A DNA stretch of 52,977 bases from an uncultured Verrucomicrobia subdivision 3 bacterium. Its GTDB lineage: Bacteria > Verrucomicrobiota > Verrucomicrobiia > Limisphaerales > UBA11358. The notes below the pieces were generated by a model. That model saw nothing but the letters and a program-made list of their open reading frames with translations. It did not search any database and was not told the origin of the DNA. A program made the position numbers and the translations under genes. Location of the stretch: contig CAISYZ010000097.1 in NCBI GenBank assembly GCA_903889895.1, forward strand, positions 1-52,977. Direction: 5' to 3'. Shown piece after piece: positions 5,143 to 52,977 of this stretch (within the stretch, counting starts at the first letter, position 1; each line of letters begins with the position of its first letter).

Positions 5143-7110
5143 ATGCTGGTGCAACTCGGTTGGTTGCTGCTCTTGTTCGTCGGCCTGCCGGCGCGTTGTG
5201 AAAAAATCTCCGGTTGGGTCGGGGCGCATCAGTTTGCGTTCGACGTGCGCTCTGTGCCCTCGACAGAAGTGTTCCCGGTTGCCGGAGTGACGGCGGAGTT
5301 CATCGCCATTACCGAGGTTTATCCCGATAATCCCAAAGCGGTTTCATATCACTATCTCGTTACTGCTCCCGGCCTCGCTCCGTTTGAGCGCTGCTACTCT
5401 GCCCGGGGGTTCGGACCGGTCGCCTACTTCTTGCGCGTCGCCCGACAACCGGTCGGCTCGGTAACGCTGACCAATCTCGGCGGCGGCACGCCACAAATTC
5501 TTGGCGTGCGCGCGGTGACTCGCGATGAACTGGCCCGTATCAAACGCGATGACAAGTTCACGCTCATGGGCACGGTGATTAATCCGAGGAATGCCATGAG
5601 CGAGGACGAACAAGTCAGGCGGATTGCTGAGAGGCTTGTCGCCGATCCAAAGCGGAACATTGGCCGGGCATTCTCCTACGAAATCTATTATGCCAACAGT
5701 AACACCAACGATGTGCGTCGACAGTTGGAGGCTGCCAGACAGTGGTCACTACAATACAAACTGCCAGTGCTGCTCGGCATGGTCTCGTGGTGGAACGGCA
5801 CGCCGCGCAACGTGCCAGACGGGCTGGGTGGCAAGTTTGGCGACCTTCAGTATCAGCAGGTATGCTATACCCCGGACAGCATTCACCCGGAAAACACGGA
5901 GTTGCGGAAGTTGCTCGGCGAGCGATACAACCCCCACTATTGCCTTTCGACACCGAATATTTGGAACAATACTCCATGGCTGACCTTGAACAGCACGGAA
6001 CTAAATGCCTATCGCGCCCGCCGAATGCGTGAAGCGGTGGACTTGTTGGCTGAAATCAGCCAGGGCGACACCGCGTGGATCGCCGGCATCTTTCTGGAGA
6101 ACGAGCCGCGTTACTGGGACACACAGTCAACCCAGGGAACGCCGCAATGGTGTGGCGAACGCTGGGCTGATTTCAATCCCTGCGTTATTGCCGCCGCCGC
6201 TCGGGACGGGGTGACATTGGATCCCGCCGATGGATTGTCGCTGGAGGAATTGACCTGGTTGCAAAAAAACGCCGGACGCTATTTTCAAGAGACGGTCAAC
6301 ATGTTCCGCGCGGCGCTGGCGGCCCGGGGGCTGCTTGATAAGTTTCCCATATACACCCACTCACTCCAGATTCCGATCTTGTTTCCCGGAGTGAAAATCA
6401 ACCGGACGCCATCAGACTGGGCCAGAGCAGTCGGGGCGCGCACCGGCATCGAAGGCATCTGGAGCCAACCCTCGGATTTCGATCGCGTGCGCGAATGGGG
6501 GCCGTGGTGCAATCTAAATCGCGAGGAGACCGATGGCAGTCCCATTGATACACACCTCTGGGATCTGCGCACGGCCTATGCCATGGGTGCCGAGTTGTTC
6601 AACAGCTATAACTGGCATCTGATCAAGAAAGACGCCTACTTCAACTACGCGCGCAATTTTGTGGCGGCGCTGCCGTCCGTCACGCTCCCGCCGGTTCGCG
6701 CCGAGCGGATAAACTCAAACACCATCACCCTCACGCCACCCGGCGGTCTGCAGGCTTTCACACAAATCATTGTTCCAGTGGAAACCATTCCCGGTCGTGC
6801 AGTCAAAGGCATGACGGTGGCATTGGCTGTTGACGGCGGCCCAAATCTAACGTGGTTCTCCGAACGCCAGCCGCTTCCAGCCGGTGGCCGCCGTCTGTTG
6901 ACGTTTGTTTTTCCCGCGCCAGCCGAGGTGCGTTGGTCGGACACAGGAACGATTCGCCTGCGCGCGTATGATGCGGGTGGCGCGGAGGTGCATAGGGCGG
7001 TGGCTTTTACCAGTGGCGCGGCGCAGGAGCTGCGCTTAAACTACGATTTGGAGCAGAGTCGCGCCTTGAGCCGGCTGCTGATGCAATGGAAACAAGCTGC
7101 TCCGCGATGA
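5143..7110 (+). CDS. Unrecognised exported protein, TIM-barrel glycosidase-like
   Basis: The open frame begins upstream at 5041, but the ATG at 5143 immediately starts a signal peptide (LVQLGWLLLLFVGLPA), so I take it as the start; this gives 655 residues. It lies just after an 11-A run (5126-5136). I do not recognise the family. Residues about 20-130 look beta-rich; the middle has alternating hydrophobic strands and an N-E-P stretch (FLENEPRYWD, about 316-325) of the kind seen at the acid/base position of clan-A glycoside hydrolases. Residues about 510-655 look like a C-terminal beta-sandwich. Position at the head of a secreted-glycosidase run suggests polysaccharide breakdown. That function is inference, and no catalytic pair is proven. 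Confidence 0.7.
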   Translation: MLVQLGWLLLLFVGLPARCEKISGWVGAHQFAFDVRSVPSTEVFPVAGVTAEFIAITEVYPDNPKAVSYHYLVTAPGLAPFERCYSARGFGPVAYFLRVARQPVGSVTLTNLGGGTPQILGVRAVTRDELARIKRDDKFTLMGTVINPRNAMSEDEQVRRIAERLVADPKRNIGRAFSYEIYYANSNTNDVRRQLEAARQWSLQYKLPVLLGMVSWWNGTPRNVPDGLGGKFGDLQYQQVCYTPDSIHPENTELRKLLGERYNPHYCLSTPNIWNNTPWLTLNSTELNAYRARRMREAVDLLAEISQGDTAWIAGIFLENEPRYWDTQSTQGTPQWCGERWADFNPCVIAAAARDGVTLDPADGLSLEELTWLQKNAGRYFQETVNMFRAALAARGLLDKFPIYTHSLQIPILFPGVKINRTPSDWARAVGARTGIEGIWSQPSDFDRVREWGPWCNLNREETDGSPIDTHLWDLRTAYAMGAELFNSYNWHLIKKDAYFNYARNFVAALPSVTLPPVRAERINSNTITLTPPGGLQAFTQIIVPVETIPGRAVKGMTVALAVDGGPNLTWFSERQPLPAGGRRLLTFVFPAPAEVRWSDTGTIRLRAYDAGGAEVHRAVAFTSGAAQELRLNYDLEQSRALSRLLMQWKQAAPR

Positions 7111-7176: not shown

Positions 7177-8430
7177 ATGATAGCCGCATCAAACAAAACA
7201 GGTTGGATACGCGGACTGCTGCTGTTAGTGGCCATTGCCCCCGAGTTGGTGAATCTTGCCGGTTGGGCCGGGAAAACCAATTCGCCTATCACCGTGGCGT
7301 GCTATTATTTTCCCGATTTTCATCCGGGCGACCCACGCAACACCAAACTCAAGGGCAAAGACTGGTCGGAATGGAAGCTGGTGGCGGATGCCAAGCCGCG
7401 CTTTCCCGGCGAGCATCAGCCCAATGTGCCGCTGTGGGGGTATTGCGATGAATCCAACCCGCAGGTAATGGCCAAAAAGATAGGCGCCGCGGCTGACAAT
7501 GGCATCAACGTCTTCATCTTTGATTGGTATTATTACAACGACGGCCCGTATTTGCAGGGCTGTCTGGATGATGGGTTTCTCAAGGCCACAAATGTCAATC
7601 GCATCAAATTTGCCCTCATGTGGGCGAATCATGACTGGCTCGAATTGCATCCTGCCAAACTGGGCCAGCCACAAAAGCTGCTGTATCCTGGGAAAGTTAC
7701 GCCCGAACACTTTGACCAGATTTGTGATTACGTCATCAAGAATTATTTTCTGAATTCGTCCTATTGGAAAATTGACGGCAAGCCTTATTTTTCCTTTTAC
7801 GATTTGAACAAGTTGCTGGAAAATTTCGGCTCAGTGGAAGCGACACGGGCGGCTCTGGACAAGTTTCGCGCCAAAGCCAAGGCAGCCGGTCTGCCTGGAC
7901 TTCATCTGAACGCCGTGGTTTGGGGGCAGCCTATTCTGCCTGCGGAGAAAACCCCCGCCGATGTCGCCAAACTGGTGCGCGAACTCGGTTTTGATTCCGT
8001 CACTTCCTATGTGTGGATTCACCATGTGCCGCTGCCCCAGCAGCAGACTGACTACAACTATGTCCGCGACGCCTACTTCAAGTATTGGAACGAGGCGGAG
8101 AAGGAATACGACGTGCCATATATTCCGAATGTGACGATGGGCTGGGATCCCAGTCCCCGCTGCAATCAGAGTGACAAGTTCGGCAATTTTGGTTATCCCT
8201 TCATGAACACCATCTGCAGCAACACGCCGGAGCGGTTCAAGGAAGAATTGGAATTGACCAAGCAACGCCTGCTCGCCGCCCCGAATGGCCCTCGCATCCT
8301 CAACCTCAATTGCTGGAATGAATGGACCGAGGGCAGCTATTTGGAGCCGGACACTGTCCATGGCCTGTCCTACTTAAAAGCGGTCAAAGAGGTCTTTCCG
8401 CCACCGAAGTCCGGTTTGTCCGCTCAATAA
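7177..8430 (+). CDS. Exported GH99/WbsX-like protein
   Basis: 417 residues with an N-terminal hydrophobic leader (GLLLLVAIAPELVNLAGWA), so probably exported. The mature part starts ITVACYYFPDFHPGD and contains FDWYYYNDGPYL (about 114-125), MWANHDW and, near the C-terminus, NCWNEWTEGSYLEPD (about 376-390). These are hallmarks of the WbsX/GH99-like family, related to endo-alpha-mannosidases and often found beside polysaccharide genes. The exact reaction is unknown; the conserved acidic residues are consistent with a retaining glycosidase. It lies 66 bp after the preceding unknown protein and 12 bp before the next gene, so it is probably cotranscribed. Confidence 0.8.
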   Translation: MIAASNKTGWIRGLLLLVAIAPELVNLAGWAGKTNSPITVACYYFPDFHPGDPRNTKLKGKDWSEWKLVADAKPRFPGEHQPNVPLWGYCDESNPQVMAKKIGAAADNGINVFIFDWYYYNDGPYLQGCLDDGFLKATNVNRIKFALMWANHDWLELHPAKLGQPQKLLYPGKVTPEHFDQICDYVIKNYFLNSSYWKIDGKPYFSFYDLNKLLENFGSVEATRAALDKFRAKAKAAGLPGLHLNAVVWGQPILPAEKTPADVAKLVRELGFDSVTSYVWIHHVPLPQQQTDYNYVRDAYFKYWNEAEKEYDVPYIPNVTMGWDPSPRCNQSDKFGNFGYPFMNTICSNTPERFKEELELTKQRLLAAPNGPRILNLNCWNEWTEGSYLEPDTVHGLSYLKAVKEVFPPPKSGLSAQ

Positions 8431-49002: not shown

Positions 49003-49848
49003 TTATTTCCGATTTCCGATTTCCGATTTCCGTTTTTTTTGGGCGGCGTAAAGTTTTTCGATGTGCTCGTAAGGCAGCTTCACGGTGCCGATGAGCGGCT
49101 GCTTTTTGCTGAAGCCGTGGCAGTCGGAACCGCCGGTGACAAGCAAATCATATTTCTCAGCAATCTCCAGATAGCGTTCAGACATCACGGTGGAATGCTT
49201 AGTGTGAAAACATTCGATGCCATCAAGTCCCGCCTTCACGAGGTCGGGAATGATGTCATCCGTGCGGTTCAAACCGGGATGCGCCATGACCGCAAGGCCG
49301 CCGGCCTGATGGATCAGCTCCACGCTTTCCAACGCGGACATCTTGGTCTTCGGCACCCACGCCGGCCGGCCTTTTTTGAGATATTTTTCAAACGCCTCGT
49401 CAAGGTTGCCGATGAGTTTTTCCTTCACCAGCGCGCGCGCGACGTGCGGCCGGCCGGGCGACTTGCAGTTCGCCAGCGCAAAAACCGCTTCCGGCTTGAG
49501 CGGAATCCCGAGCTTGTTCAGCGCTGCACACATTTCGTTGATGCGGTTCTGCCGCACGGCTTGAAACTTGGCGATGCGGTCCAGCAGCACCTTATTTTTG
49601 GTGTCGAGAAAATAACCAAGCACATGGACTTCCGTGTCCTCATGCTCGGCGGTGAGCTCCGCGCCGGAAATAAACTCCATCTTCACGTTTGCGCACGCCG
49701 CCGCCGCGCGCTCGCAACCCTCCACCGTATCGTGGTCGGTGAGCGCGATGCAGGCCAGCCCGGCTTTTTGCGCGCGCAGCACCAGCTCCTCCGGGGTAAA
49801 GGTGCCGTCGGAAAACTGCGTGTGCAGGTGCAGGTCCGCGAATTTCAT
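49003..49848 (-). CDS. PHP-domain phosphoesterase (RNase AM/YciV type)
   Basis: 281 residues. The metal-binding PHP motifs are DLHLHTQFSDG, ALTDHDTVEG, GAELTAEHEDTEVHVLGYF, MAHPGLNR and GGSDCHG. The overall order is that of the YciV/RNase AM group, which trims RNA 5' ends and hydrolyses 3',5'-bisphosphates; the exact substrate is inferred. The C-terminal residues KRKSEIGNRK come from a 7-bp tandem repeat that also contains the stop codon. Start overlaps the nusB stop. Confidence 0.88.
   Translation of the reverse strand: MKFADLHLHTQFSDGTFTPEELVLRAQKAGLACIALTDHDTVEGCERAAAACANVKMEFISGAELTAEHEDTEVHVLGYFLDTKNKVLLDRIAKFQAVRQNRINEMCAALNKLGIPLKPEAVFALANCKSPGRPHVARALVKEKLIGNLDEAFEKYLKKGRPAWVPKTKMSALESVELIHQAGGLAVMAHPGLNRTDDIIPDLVKAGLDGIECFHTKHSTVMSERYLEIAEKYDLLVTGGSDCHGFSKKQPLIGTVKLPYEHIEKLYAAQKKRKSEIGNRK
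49005..49032. repeat. Four tandem copies of a 7-bp unit at the PHP gene's 3' end
   Basis: ATTTCCG is repeated four times without error. On the minus strand it encodes the last codons of the PHP protein and overlaps its stop. A change of copy number would alter the C-terminus and the distance to ftsY. Confidence 0.9.
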
Positions 49849-50348: not shown

Positions 50349-50480
50349 TCCGGAAGCTTAATTGCGCCGCCGGTCAATGTCCAACGCCGAAAGCCGGCTT
50401 TCTGACCCGAACAAAAAACTTTGCGCCTTTGCGTTGAATTATTTTCCTATTTGCCGCATCTTCCCCGCCGCACAATTTCT

Positions 50481-52328
50481 ATGGCTGAAAAACCTGTTGC
50501 CGTTTACGACGAAAGCAAGATCAAGACGCTGTCCTCGCTGGAACACATCCGGCTGCGCACCGGTATGTATATCGGGCGCATCGGCACCGGCGCGCATCCC
50601 GACGACGGCTGTTATGTCCTGCTCAAGGAGGTCGTGGACAACGCCATTGACGAATACATCATGGGCCACGGCAAGGAAGTCCAAATCACGCTGGATGGAA
50701 ATAAAGTTTCCGTGCGCGATTTCGGTCGCGGCATCCCGCTCGGCAAGGTCGTGGACTGCGTTTCCAAAATCAACACCGGTGCGAAATATAACGACGAGGT
50801 CTTTCAATTCAGCGTCGGCCTCAACGGCGTCGGCACGAAGGCCGTCAACGCGCTGTCAAAAAACTATTTCGTGCGCAGACATCGCGACGGCGAATTTGCC
50901 GAGGCGAGTTTCAAAATCGGGAAATTAAAAAAGGAAGATTCCGGCAAAACGAAGGAGCCGAACGGCACGCTGATCGAATTTGAGCCGGACGACACGATTT
51001 TCAAGGACAGCGAATTTCGGATGGAATATGTCGAGCGCCGGCTGCGCCATTACAGCTATCTCAACACCGGCCTGAAGCTCATTCTCAACACGCCGCAGTT
51101 CGCCGAGCCGAAAGTTTTCCAGTCGCGCCATGGCCTGATGGATTTGGTGATGGAAGATTTGGCGAGCGACGGCAGCGAGCCGATTTATGCGCCGCTGCAT
51201 TACGCGGGCAAGACGCTGGAATTTTGTTTCACGCACAGCAATTCGCGCTACGGCGAGACCTTTTATTCCTTCGTCAACGGCCAATACACCAGCGACGGCG
51301 GCACGCATTTGAGCGCGTTCCGCGAGGGTTTGCTGAAAGCCGTCAACGAATACGGCAACACCAAATACGAGGGCGACGACGTGCGCGAGTGCATGGTCGG
51401 CGCAGTGGCCATCCGGTTGAAAGACCCGGTGTTCGAGTCGCAGACGAAGAACAAACTGGGCAACACGGAAATCCGCACCGAGTTGGTGAACAGCGTGCGT
51501 GAGGAATTGCTGCATTTCTTTCAGCGCAACAAGCAGATCGCCGAGACCATCATGGCGAAGGTCAAGGACACGCAGCAGTTGCGCAAGGAATTGCAGGACG
51601 TGAAAAAACTTTCCCGCGAGCGCGCGAAGGCGATTTCCCTCCGCATTCCGCAGTTGAAGGACTGCAAAAATCATTTCGACAAGAAGAAGGAAAAAGGCAA
51701 AGGCACGATGGTGTTTATCTGCGAAGGCCAGTCTGCCGCCGGCTCCATCACGAGCTGTCGCGACGTGAACAACCAGGCCGTCTTCGTGCTCAAGGGCAAG
51801 CCGCTCAACGTCTGGGACCTCAAGCGCGACGTGATGTATAAGAACGACGAGATGTATAATCTCATGCAGGCGTTGCAGATTGAGGACACGACGGACAGCC
51901 TGCGCTACGAAAAGGTGATTCTTGCGACCGACGCGGACGTGGACGGTCTGCACATCCGCAACTTGATGATCACGTATTTCTTCAAGTTCTTCGAGCAGCT
52001 TGTCCACGACGGCCATGTTTTCATTTTGGAAACGCCGCTGTTCCGTGTGCGCAACAAGCAGGAGACGATTTATTGTTACAGCGAAACCGAACGCGACGCG
52101 GCGTCCGCGAAGCTGGGCGGCAAACCGGAAATCACGCGCTTCAAAGGGCTCGGTGAAATTTCGCCGAAGGAATTCCAGCAGTTCATCGGCAAGCAAATGC
52201 GCCTGAGCAAAGTCGAATACGCGCCGCGCGCCGAGTCCGGCCAGATCTTTGATTTCTACATGGGCAAGAACACGCCCGAGCGCAAGGATTACATCATGGA
52301 CAGCCTCGTGGTGCCCGTCGAAGAATAA
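50481..52328 (+). CDS. parE: DNA topoisomerase IV subunit B (Bacteroidetes-like ParE)
   Basis: 615 residues from the ATG at 50481; the frame opens at 50421 but the added residues have no homology. The GHKL ATPase has EVVDNAIDE, DFGRGIPLG and VGLNGVGTKAVNALS; the toprim domain has EGQSAAGSI (415-423), TDADVDGLHIRN (Asp484, Asp486) and RFKGLGEISPKEF. The wording is close to Bacteroidetes ParE and not to typical GyrB. Gln417 stands where GyrB has the Asp of EGDSAGG; ParE of this type also varies there. No parC follows in the window. Confidence 0.9.
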   Translation: MAEKPVAVYDESKIKTLSSLEHIRLRTGMYIGRIGTGAHPDDGCYVLLKEVVDNAIDEYIMGHGKEVQITLDGNKVSVRDFGRGIPLGKVVDCVSKINTGAKYNDEVFQFSVGLNGVGTKAVNALSKNYFVRRHRDGEFAEASFKIGKLKKEDSGKTKEPNGTLIEFEPDDTIFKDSEFRMEYVERRLRHYSYLNTGLKLILNTPQFAEPKVFQSRHGLMDLVMEDLASDGSEPIYAPLHYAGKTLEFCFTHSNSRYGETFYSFVNGQYTSDGGTHLSAFREGLLKAVNEYGNTKYEGDDVRECMVGAVAIRLKDPVFESQTKNKLGNTEIRTELVNSVREELLHFFQRNKQIAETIMAKVKDTQQLRKELQDVKKLSRERAKAISLRIPQLKDCKNHFDKKKEKGKGTMVFICEGQSAAGSITSCRDVNNQAVFVLKGKPLNVWDLKRDVMYKNDEMYNLMQALQIEDTTDSLRYEKVILATDADVDGLHIRNLMITYFFKFFEQLVHDGHVFILETPLFRVRNKQETIYCYSETERDAASAKLGGKPEITRFKGLGEISPKEFQQFIGKQMRLSKVEYAPRAESGQIFDFYMGKNTPERKDYIMDSLVVPVEE

Positions 52329-52358
52329 GACCTCTTCTCCGGCTCCAGCTTCCACCCG

Positions 52359-52610
52359 CCGGATTGAATCGTGCGGTTGAAAGATCGCGTCTGACGGTCG
52401 CCAGATTGGTTCTGCAAATTGCCGGACGACCTCTGCCGACTGCCGGATGGCATCTGTCGGTTGGTTTATTCCATCTGCCAACTGCAAAACGCCATCTTCC
52501 TTTTGATTTATCGCCTCGTGCTGTTGACTTTTGACCATGTGCGGTCGCTGGATAGCGTCTGTCAGTTGCCGGACGACCGCTGACTTTTGGTTTATCGCGT
52601 CTGTCGGTTG
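52359..52610. repeat. Array of twelve exact-period 21-bp degenerate repeats
   Basis: Twelve consecutive 21-bp units fill 52359-52610 with no insertion or deletion. Each ends in TTG, CTG or TCG, and most have CTG or GTG eleven bases in; units 4, 5, 10 and 11 share CCGGA or CTGGA starts. Read on the minus strand in one uninterrupted frame, each unit is a heptad of the form Q-x-x-D/E-x-I/V-x (QPTDAIN, QKSAVVR, QLTDAIQ, QPTDAIR, QSAEVVR, RPSDAIF and so on). No ATG precedes the array in that frame back to a TAA near 52710. The 380-bp gap between parE and the next gene holds only this array and 98 bp of unremarkable sequence. Confidence 0.85.
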
Positions 52611-52708
52611 CCTTTTTGCCCCGAAAACCCGCTTTTTCTCAATTTTCGTCGAATAAATGGCAAAATTTGGTGAGAAAGCCCGTCCAGCGGGTTCACGCTT
52701 GGCGTGTT

Positions 52709-52977
52709 ATGAATACCAAGCAGCAGAACAAGCTGGCCATGTATCTAGCGACAAAGAGCGTGCTCGATTCCAACAATTCAGTTTGGCAATCGTTGCAGGC
52801 TTTCGCGGATGGATACACGGACTTCACCAGCCATGTAGCCAGAATCCAGACCTTGGAACTTTCCCAGGTGACGGATTCCACCGGCATCGCGCAGGACAAA
52901 AAAGCGTCCAAGGCGGCGATGGCAACGGCAGCGCAGACCATCAGTGCGGCGGTTCACGCCTACGCTGTCAAAAACAA
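52709..52977 (+). CDS. Unrecognised protein, 3' truncated by window end
   Basis: An ATG at 52709 opens a frame that runs off the end (89 complete codons): MNTKQQNKLAMYLATKSVLD, then SNNSVWQSLQAFADGYTDFT and a helical, Ala-rich part. It looks real: the amino-acid balance is natural and the opposite-strand frame is a shadow. It resembles small hypothetical proteins with an MxTKQQNKL start that I associate with Bacteroidetes/Verrucomicrobiota, with no known function. No signal peptide. Confidence 0.65.
   Translation, partial: MNTKQQNKLAMYLATKSVLDSNNSVWQSLQAFADGYTDFTSHVARIQTLELSQVTDSTGIAQDKKASKAAMATAAQTISAAVHAYAVKN

Follow-up and report, generated by a model that had tools for sequence, protein, structure and literature searches.

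The window analysed here, the whole stretch of 52,977 bp, corresponds to contig C97 in an assembly of 4.1 Mb. Near its end lies parE, the gene for topoisomerase IV subunit B (50421..52328, + strand), recognized by its open reading frame and 80 relatives, which is taken as a neighbour outside the module described below. It is followed on the + strand by an array of 13 units of 21 bp (52352..52624), an A+T-rich spacer (52625..52708) and the beginning of an orphan gene (52709..52977), here called family 1, of which the first 89 codons are present before the contig end cuts it, and which is 89% identical to a full copy in contig C70 of genome G011 (G011:C70). The alignments show the spacer to be homologous to those at G011:C70 and G011:C90. 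A previous sequence-only reading had described 12 units with a strict 21-bp period at 52359-52610; the strict period holds, being all 12 steps of 21 bp when the unit alignment permitted steps of 17-25 bp, whereas the extent is slightly wider. The + strand gene starting at 52709, upstream of which the array lies, was outside the view of that reading, as was the presence of more such arrays elsewhere in the genome.

The periodicity is specific. Over 52330-52650, identity is 0.49 at lag 21, 0.50 at lag 42 and 0.45 at lag 63, with values of 0.16-0.37 for the remaining lags from 5 to 69, and the unit carries a dyad (p 0.005). The 80 parE loci and the window together make up 849 kb of control DNA, from which an arbitrarily chosen cut-off of 0.5 lag-21 identity over 126 bp retrieves four stretches, namely the window array and its orthologue in L025, plus one stretch each in L029 and L059, while lags 20 and 22 give none and lags 18 and 24 give two each. 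This confirms that the window array is real and beyond chance, although it is absent from the output of TRF at score 30. Also, a 7-bp sub-period is present in the window array (z 3.3) and exceeds a z of 2 in 7 of 28 family-1 arrays. Elsewhere in the window, a 7-bp tandem repeat (ATTTCCG, 4.6 copies) occupies 49005-49036, at the 3' end of a minus-strand ORF.

The relatives of parE come from MAGs labelled Verrucomicrobia subdivision 3, Limisphaerales or Pedosphaera, plus some with other labels, and parC directly follows parE in 24 of the 78 that are testable. Comparison with related sites shows how the parts of the module are combined. At G011:C70, an array is followed by the same spacer and gene as in the window, and the alignment of the window with a decayed copy at G011:C90 extends from -352 to +80 (433 bp, 83% identity), array and spacer showing no internal gaps. 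At the orthologous parE site of G011, whose sequence is identical to L025, the array is present and the gene absent. Solo arrays without a gene are also found at G000:C186, G011:C21 and L029. The last one (L029:295-441) is a row of palindromes next to which no family-1 gene was detected; two family-1 copies with different units exist elsewhere in its genome.

Family 1 is a dispersed family of proteins of about 235 aa, with members in 19 of 49 congeneric genomes, in 36 of 320 genomes of the order (profile search, E 1e-10) and in 3 of 387 genomes of a phylum sample, the window's own counted. No convincing relative was found in Pfam, NCBIfam, PADLOC, PHROGs or the PDB sequences, and a protein collection gave 211 relatives, unnamed or hypothetical as far as the best 120 of the 211 are concerned. 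AlphaFold predicts an all-helical model with one helix of 59 residues (mean pLDDT 84.3, pTM 0.49), for which Foldseek returned no match under an E value of 0.38 and VIA-align only generic bundles. An array lies within 700 bp upstream of 23 of the 40 full-length copies at a lag-21 identity of at least 0.5 (20 of 37 if L105, L114 and L115, which were first found by their arrays, are excluded) and of 26 at a value of at least 0.44; the 14 copies below 0.44 belong to G095, G110, G114, G118, G032, G079 and G189. The 849 kb of control DNA, by comparison, contain the four stretches listed above. When mapped onto a tree of 42 proteins, array presence requires 7 changes, compared with 12.0 for shuffled labels. 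Moreover, the unit consensus sequences of 28 family-1 arrays fall into 9 unrelated clusters (99.9% level, permuted null). Short family-1 forms of about 110-130 aa, with the middle part missing, are observed at L145-L148, L156, L157 and L183, and nothing upstream of them reaches an identity of 0.5 at lag 21. At L214 (G122:C33, around position 2320), the C-terminal part of family 1 stands in frame behind some 25 residues that resemble the start of a RAYT-type transposase.

Such arrays are found upstream of further orphan genes. Near thrS of G029, an array with a period of 42 bp precedes an ORF unrelated to family 1. This second family was found at 8 loci, distributed over 7 of 313 genomes; the majority of the loci match the N-terminal 47 residues only, and lag-42 identity is 0.52-0.68 in the seven loci with enough upstream DNA, all of them positive and with no rise at lag 21; the steps are of 42 (33 cases), 41 (6), 43 (2) and 39 bp (1). 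A survey covering the window and 20 stretches each from G011 and the window's genome, 847 kb in all, yielded 17 lag-21 stretches of at least 0.5, compared with one each for lags 20 and 22, 16 for lag 42, 14 for lag 63 and up to 8 for other multiples of 3. In the 394 kb sampled from the window's genome there are 12 lag-21 stretches, two of which are short and lie within ORFs, leaving 10. The sample consists of long contigs chosen by the authors and amounts to roughly a tenth of the genome; an extrapolation from it would put about a hundred arrays in the whole.

Two genes downstream of surveyed arrays served as starting points for families 3 and 4, found in 45 of 313 and 22 of 49 genomes, respectively. 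Family 4 shows a weak fn3 match. Among the best 30 loci per search, lag-21 arrays lie upstream in 19 of 27 family-3 loci and 21 of 27 family-4 loci (17 of 25 and 20 of 26 without the ascertainment loci), being 8 and 6 loci below 0.5 at lag 21, and lags of 16-20 and 22-26 give none or one each. A 3' control taken 750-1450 bp past the start gives lag 21 in 0 of 27 family-3 and 2 of 27 family-4 loci, where the denominators count all loci whatever the length of their 3' DNA. The upstream arrays thus recur in four orphan gene families. The median number of units per array is 13 in families 3 and 4, and the distance between array end and gene start is 18-307 bp in family 1, with medians of 191 bp in family 3 and 220 bp in family 4.

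Since seven codons also make 21 bp, the exceptions to the period are informative. All arrays considered here had been selected for a 21-bp period, and 798 of their 825 steps measure 21 bp. Family 1 (30 arrays) accounts for 333 of 342 such steps, the other 9 being of 20 bp; family 3 (19 arrays) for 229 of 236, with one step of 18, three of 20, two of 22 and one of 24 bp; and family 4 (21 arrays) for 236 of 247, with two of 17, one of 18, four of 20, three of 22 and one of 23 bp. The step finder takes a 21-bp profile as its start and penalizes every other step equally; hence, although this start and the preselection of the family-3 and family-4 arrays at lag 21 inflate the share of 21, the split among the exceptions is unbiased. 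In the scripts behind the step counts, which for families 3 and 4 also gave the stop and dyad counts, unknown letters were counted as A. Of the 27 non-21 steps, 21 deviate by 1 bp and 3 by 3 bp, and because slips of a single base pair thus far outnumber those of a codon's length, it is helix phase that is kept and not codon phase. The proposal of the sequence-only reading that the spacing itself is under selection is supported by the same data, the period recurring across unrelated units with exceptions mostly of ±1 bp, and a phased protein-binding array is the best supported of the readings it had offered.

The other two readings of the same origin were a selfish heptad-coding repeat and a decayed coiled-coil gene, in both of which seven codons per unit would be read from the minus strand as coiled-coil heptads. 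The open minus-strand frame on which they were based exists in the window, but the start codon, described as not visible, is there: an in-frame ATG is present, and the resulting ORF (52538-50925, minus strand, 537 aa) begins inside the array and runs antisense through parE. However, two minus-strand frames of the window array are free of stops, so that one open frame is weak evidence. Some ORF of 83-186 aa spans 6 of the 10 arrays sampled in the window's genome, a result that speaks for coding and keeps its rejection from being clean. By chance, a stop-free frame is to be expected in many 21-bp arrays. Stops in all six frames are present in 8 of 28 family-1, 3 of 19 family-3 and 7 of 21 family-4 arrays (18 of 68 in total), including L114 and L105 from the window's own clade, and there is no Pfam match. 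Also, a coding array should favour slips of 3 bp, and the ratio of 21 to 3 in favour of 1-bp slips therefore argues against coding. As no frame is conserved open in related arrays, coding is refuted as a general explanation, and neither the selfish repeat nor the decayed gene is supported in that role; that the window array codes for heptads is highly improbable. Free occurrence of both indels and stops in related arrays had been named as speaking against the whole observation: stops do occur freely, whereas indels that depart from 21 bp are rare.

Regarding the anatomy of the arrays, a permutation test detects significant unit dyads in 7 of 28 family-1 arrays, among them that of the window, and none in the other 21, whereas they are present in 15 of 19 family-3, 19 of 21 family-4 and 12 of 13 further arrays (L282, L302 and L309 sit both in this last set and in families 3/4). 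The dyad consensus varies between arrays. As regards a -35 element, which the nearest site of a BvgA-type activator array would adjoin, 15 of 28 family-1 copies have the motif TTGAC within the 170 bp of spacer closest to the gene, compared with 4.0 expected and a maximum of 10 in 500 simulations. Some of the 15 are poorly placed, as in L112, where the motif stands beside the ATG, and copies that are related do not count as independent. The window spacer contains neither TTGAC nor a sigma-70-like promoter match. A terminator-like stem followed by a T run, judged by eye and of two sequence types, is observed after 14 of 18 family-1 genes.

Dyads could also indicate that the arrays act as RNA, either as a 5' stem-loop leader or as a repeat RNA that partners a protein, as in type III toxin-antitoxin systems. 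Like the present modules, these have tandem repeats upstream of a protein gene (PMC5086642). Covariation between the dyad arms within units gives a z of 2.9 over 42 pooled arrays, compared with -0.5 to 0.7 when the axes are slid by 1-2 positions; the pool consists of 35 of the 40 family-3 and family-4 arrays plus 7 of 13 others, with one array entering twice (L345 = L309) and L320, L325, L343, L354 and L355 left out as having no significant dyad. Taken singly, 6 of the pooled 42 exceed a z of 2. Moreover, folding is better than that of shuffled sequence (z below -2) in 10 of 12 further arrays, and the window array reaches -1.9 on the + and -2.7 on the - strand. However, family-1 arrays fold with mean z values of only -0.4 and -1.1, with 3 and 8 of 28 below -2; the covariation is absent in the window (z -1.0), reaches the 0.05 level in 0 of 28 family-1 arrays and is positive in 2 of the 13 other arrays; and the predicted pairs mostly reach beyond one unit. 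There is no Rfam match. In type III loci, a terminator is placed between the repeats and the endoribonuclease gene (PMC5086642), but no terminator-like site lies between array and gene at 52300-52977 of the window. As for a ToxN-like endoribonuclease, no Pfam match was obtained, the predicted model is all-helical and the fold searches gave no clear match. An RNA function is regarded as fairly unlikely.

In another explanation, the arrays would have no function: they would grow and spread by two-turn duplications, through slippage on a protein-bound template, and the neighbouring genes would be there by chance or mobility. Recent amplification is indeed apparent from near-perfect units (lag-21 identity of 0.99 in L185 and 0.98 in L353), every array has its own private units, and the solo arrays mentioned above stand without a gene. 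Nonetheless, diverged arrays still keep the spacing, and the upstream position at four gene families, when set against the 3' control, speaks against growth alone. This explanation is regarded as fairly unlikely. Alternatively, the array could belong to the structure of a mobile cassette, perhaps as an iteron-like site for recombination or transposase binding, with the gene as cargo or helper. The patchy spread of family 1 within the order and the phylum sample agrees with this, and the patterns at two places suggest movement: L149 carries part of the thrS tail upstream of its array, at a different site, and the proteins of L134 and L184 differ by 0.04 changes per site although the two loci belong to separate families within the order. 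However, L134 and L184 have 1.3 kb of flank in common, so that a larger segment may have moved. Besides, the downstream proteins lack an integrase or Rep-like domain and no relative was found in viral contigs. The probability of a cassette part is judged to be quite low.

The thrS gene, for threonyl-tRNA synthetase, shows rearrangements of its own. It is split at the eight loci L224, L225, L226 and L261-L265 (genomes G011, G041, G077, G029, G031, G013, G032 and G036), where 1.6-8 kb of one contig separates the two halves, and also at L260 and L266, whereas both halves lie in one frame of 690-857 codons at L235, L236, L237, L239 and L240. The gap between the halves holds variable cargo, with array modules in three cases and an apparent methyltransferase in two. 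Extra tails of the N-terminal thrS half occur within the cargo (L224:6059-6271, 6856-6957 and 7436-7588; L266:2042-2155 and 2772-2924), as if the inserted elements carried a tail of their target gene.

Among known repeat systems, plasmid iterons are helically phased direct repeats with a length of about 20-22 bp. The present arrays differ in that no Rep gene or replicon was found beside them, and no Rep-like Pfam match was obtained among the tested proteins downstream. A closer likeness is offered by BvgA~P, which binds Bordetella promoters as six dimers, 22 bp apart on one face of the DNA, at degenerate sites (PMC7250471). Both have sites about two helical turns apart and upstream of a gene, or a promoter in the case of BvgA~P, but there six sites serve one regulator, while here the median is 13 units, each array has a private unit and binding is putative (PMC7250471). 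In the parS sites of pSM19035, contiguous 7-bp WATCACW repeats extend over promoter regions (PMC9499535). Tandem contiguous sites are common to both. In the window's clade a 7-bp sub-period exists, but here the 21-bp period is general and the 7-bp period is not. Finally, REP palindromes with their RAYT transposases are short and extragenic, occur in Verrucomicrobia and are sometimes clustered (PMC3733652). REPs form one family with many copies per genome, whereas each of the present arrays has its own palindrome and a fixed 21-bp pitch (PMC3733652); the nine unrelated clusters among 28 family-1 arrays, and consensus sequences that differ between the other arrays compared, do not make up one palindrome family.

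Based on these comparisons, the arrays may be rows of dimer sites on one DNA face that act in cis, upstream of the promoters of orphan genes, an interpretation we tentatively prefer, with a chance somewhat short of even. Each unit would be the site for one protein dimer, and a dozen or so dimers, aligned on the same face, would act jointly on the promoter; the gain or loss of whole units would alter the number of sites while the phase is kept. Such a row would need just what is observed: a two-turn pitch in which slips of 1 bp are tolerated, dyad units and a position before genes. The private unit sequences, however, fit a single regulator poorly. Because units differ between arrays, there would be either many binders or one that reads geometry, that is, a dyad and 21 bp, over sequence. 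That many arrays, each with its own unit and nearly always with a two-turn spacing, stand directly before unexplained genes suggests a hitherto undescribed type of control element. A broader possibility, which we consider somewhat unlikely, is that Limisphaerales use a genome-wide geometric mark, with private, often palindromic units on a common two-turn pitch, placed before orphan-gene families that are partly mobile and read or built by a machinery for dyads and 21-bp phase.

If the geometric mark were true, perhaps about a hundred arrays would bear it in the window's genome. A spacing rule that survives the sequence it spaces is unusual. To our knowledge, no described system combines a constant two-turn pitch with a private unit for each array, and no description of such arrays was found in the literature, where coverage of subscription journals was limited. 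The novelty would shrink if one ordinary regulator accounted for the arrays. The geometry offers a sequence-independent route to presumed control elements and the orphan genes that follow them. It also opens to experiment the question of how a bacterium could act on many genes through arrays with a shared geometry and no shared sequence.

Finally, some single arrays depart from the common arrangement. At L186:2779, an array with a period of 20 bp (lag-20 identity 0.87) lies downstream of a family-1 gene, and at L350 a family-4 gene has an upstream array that also has a period of 20 (lag-20 identity 0.58). An array of 22 units at L298:12797-13273 (G000:C257), whose palindromic units vary jointly on both arms (z 3.5), adjoins an ORF with a weak match to Mrr-like endonucleases.
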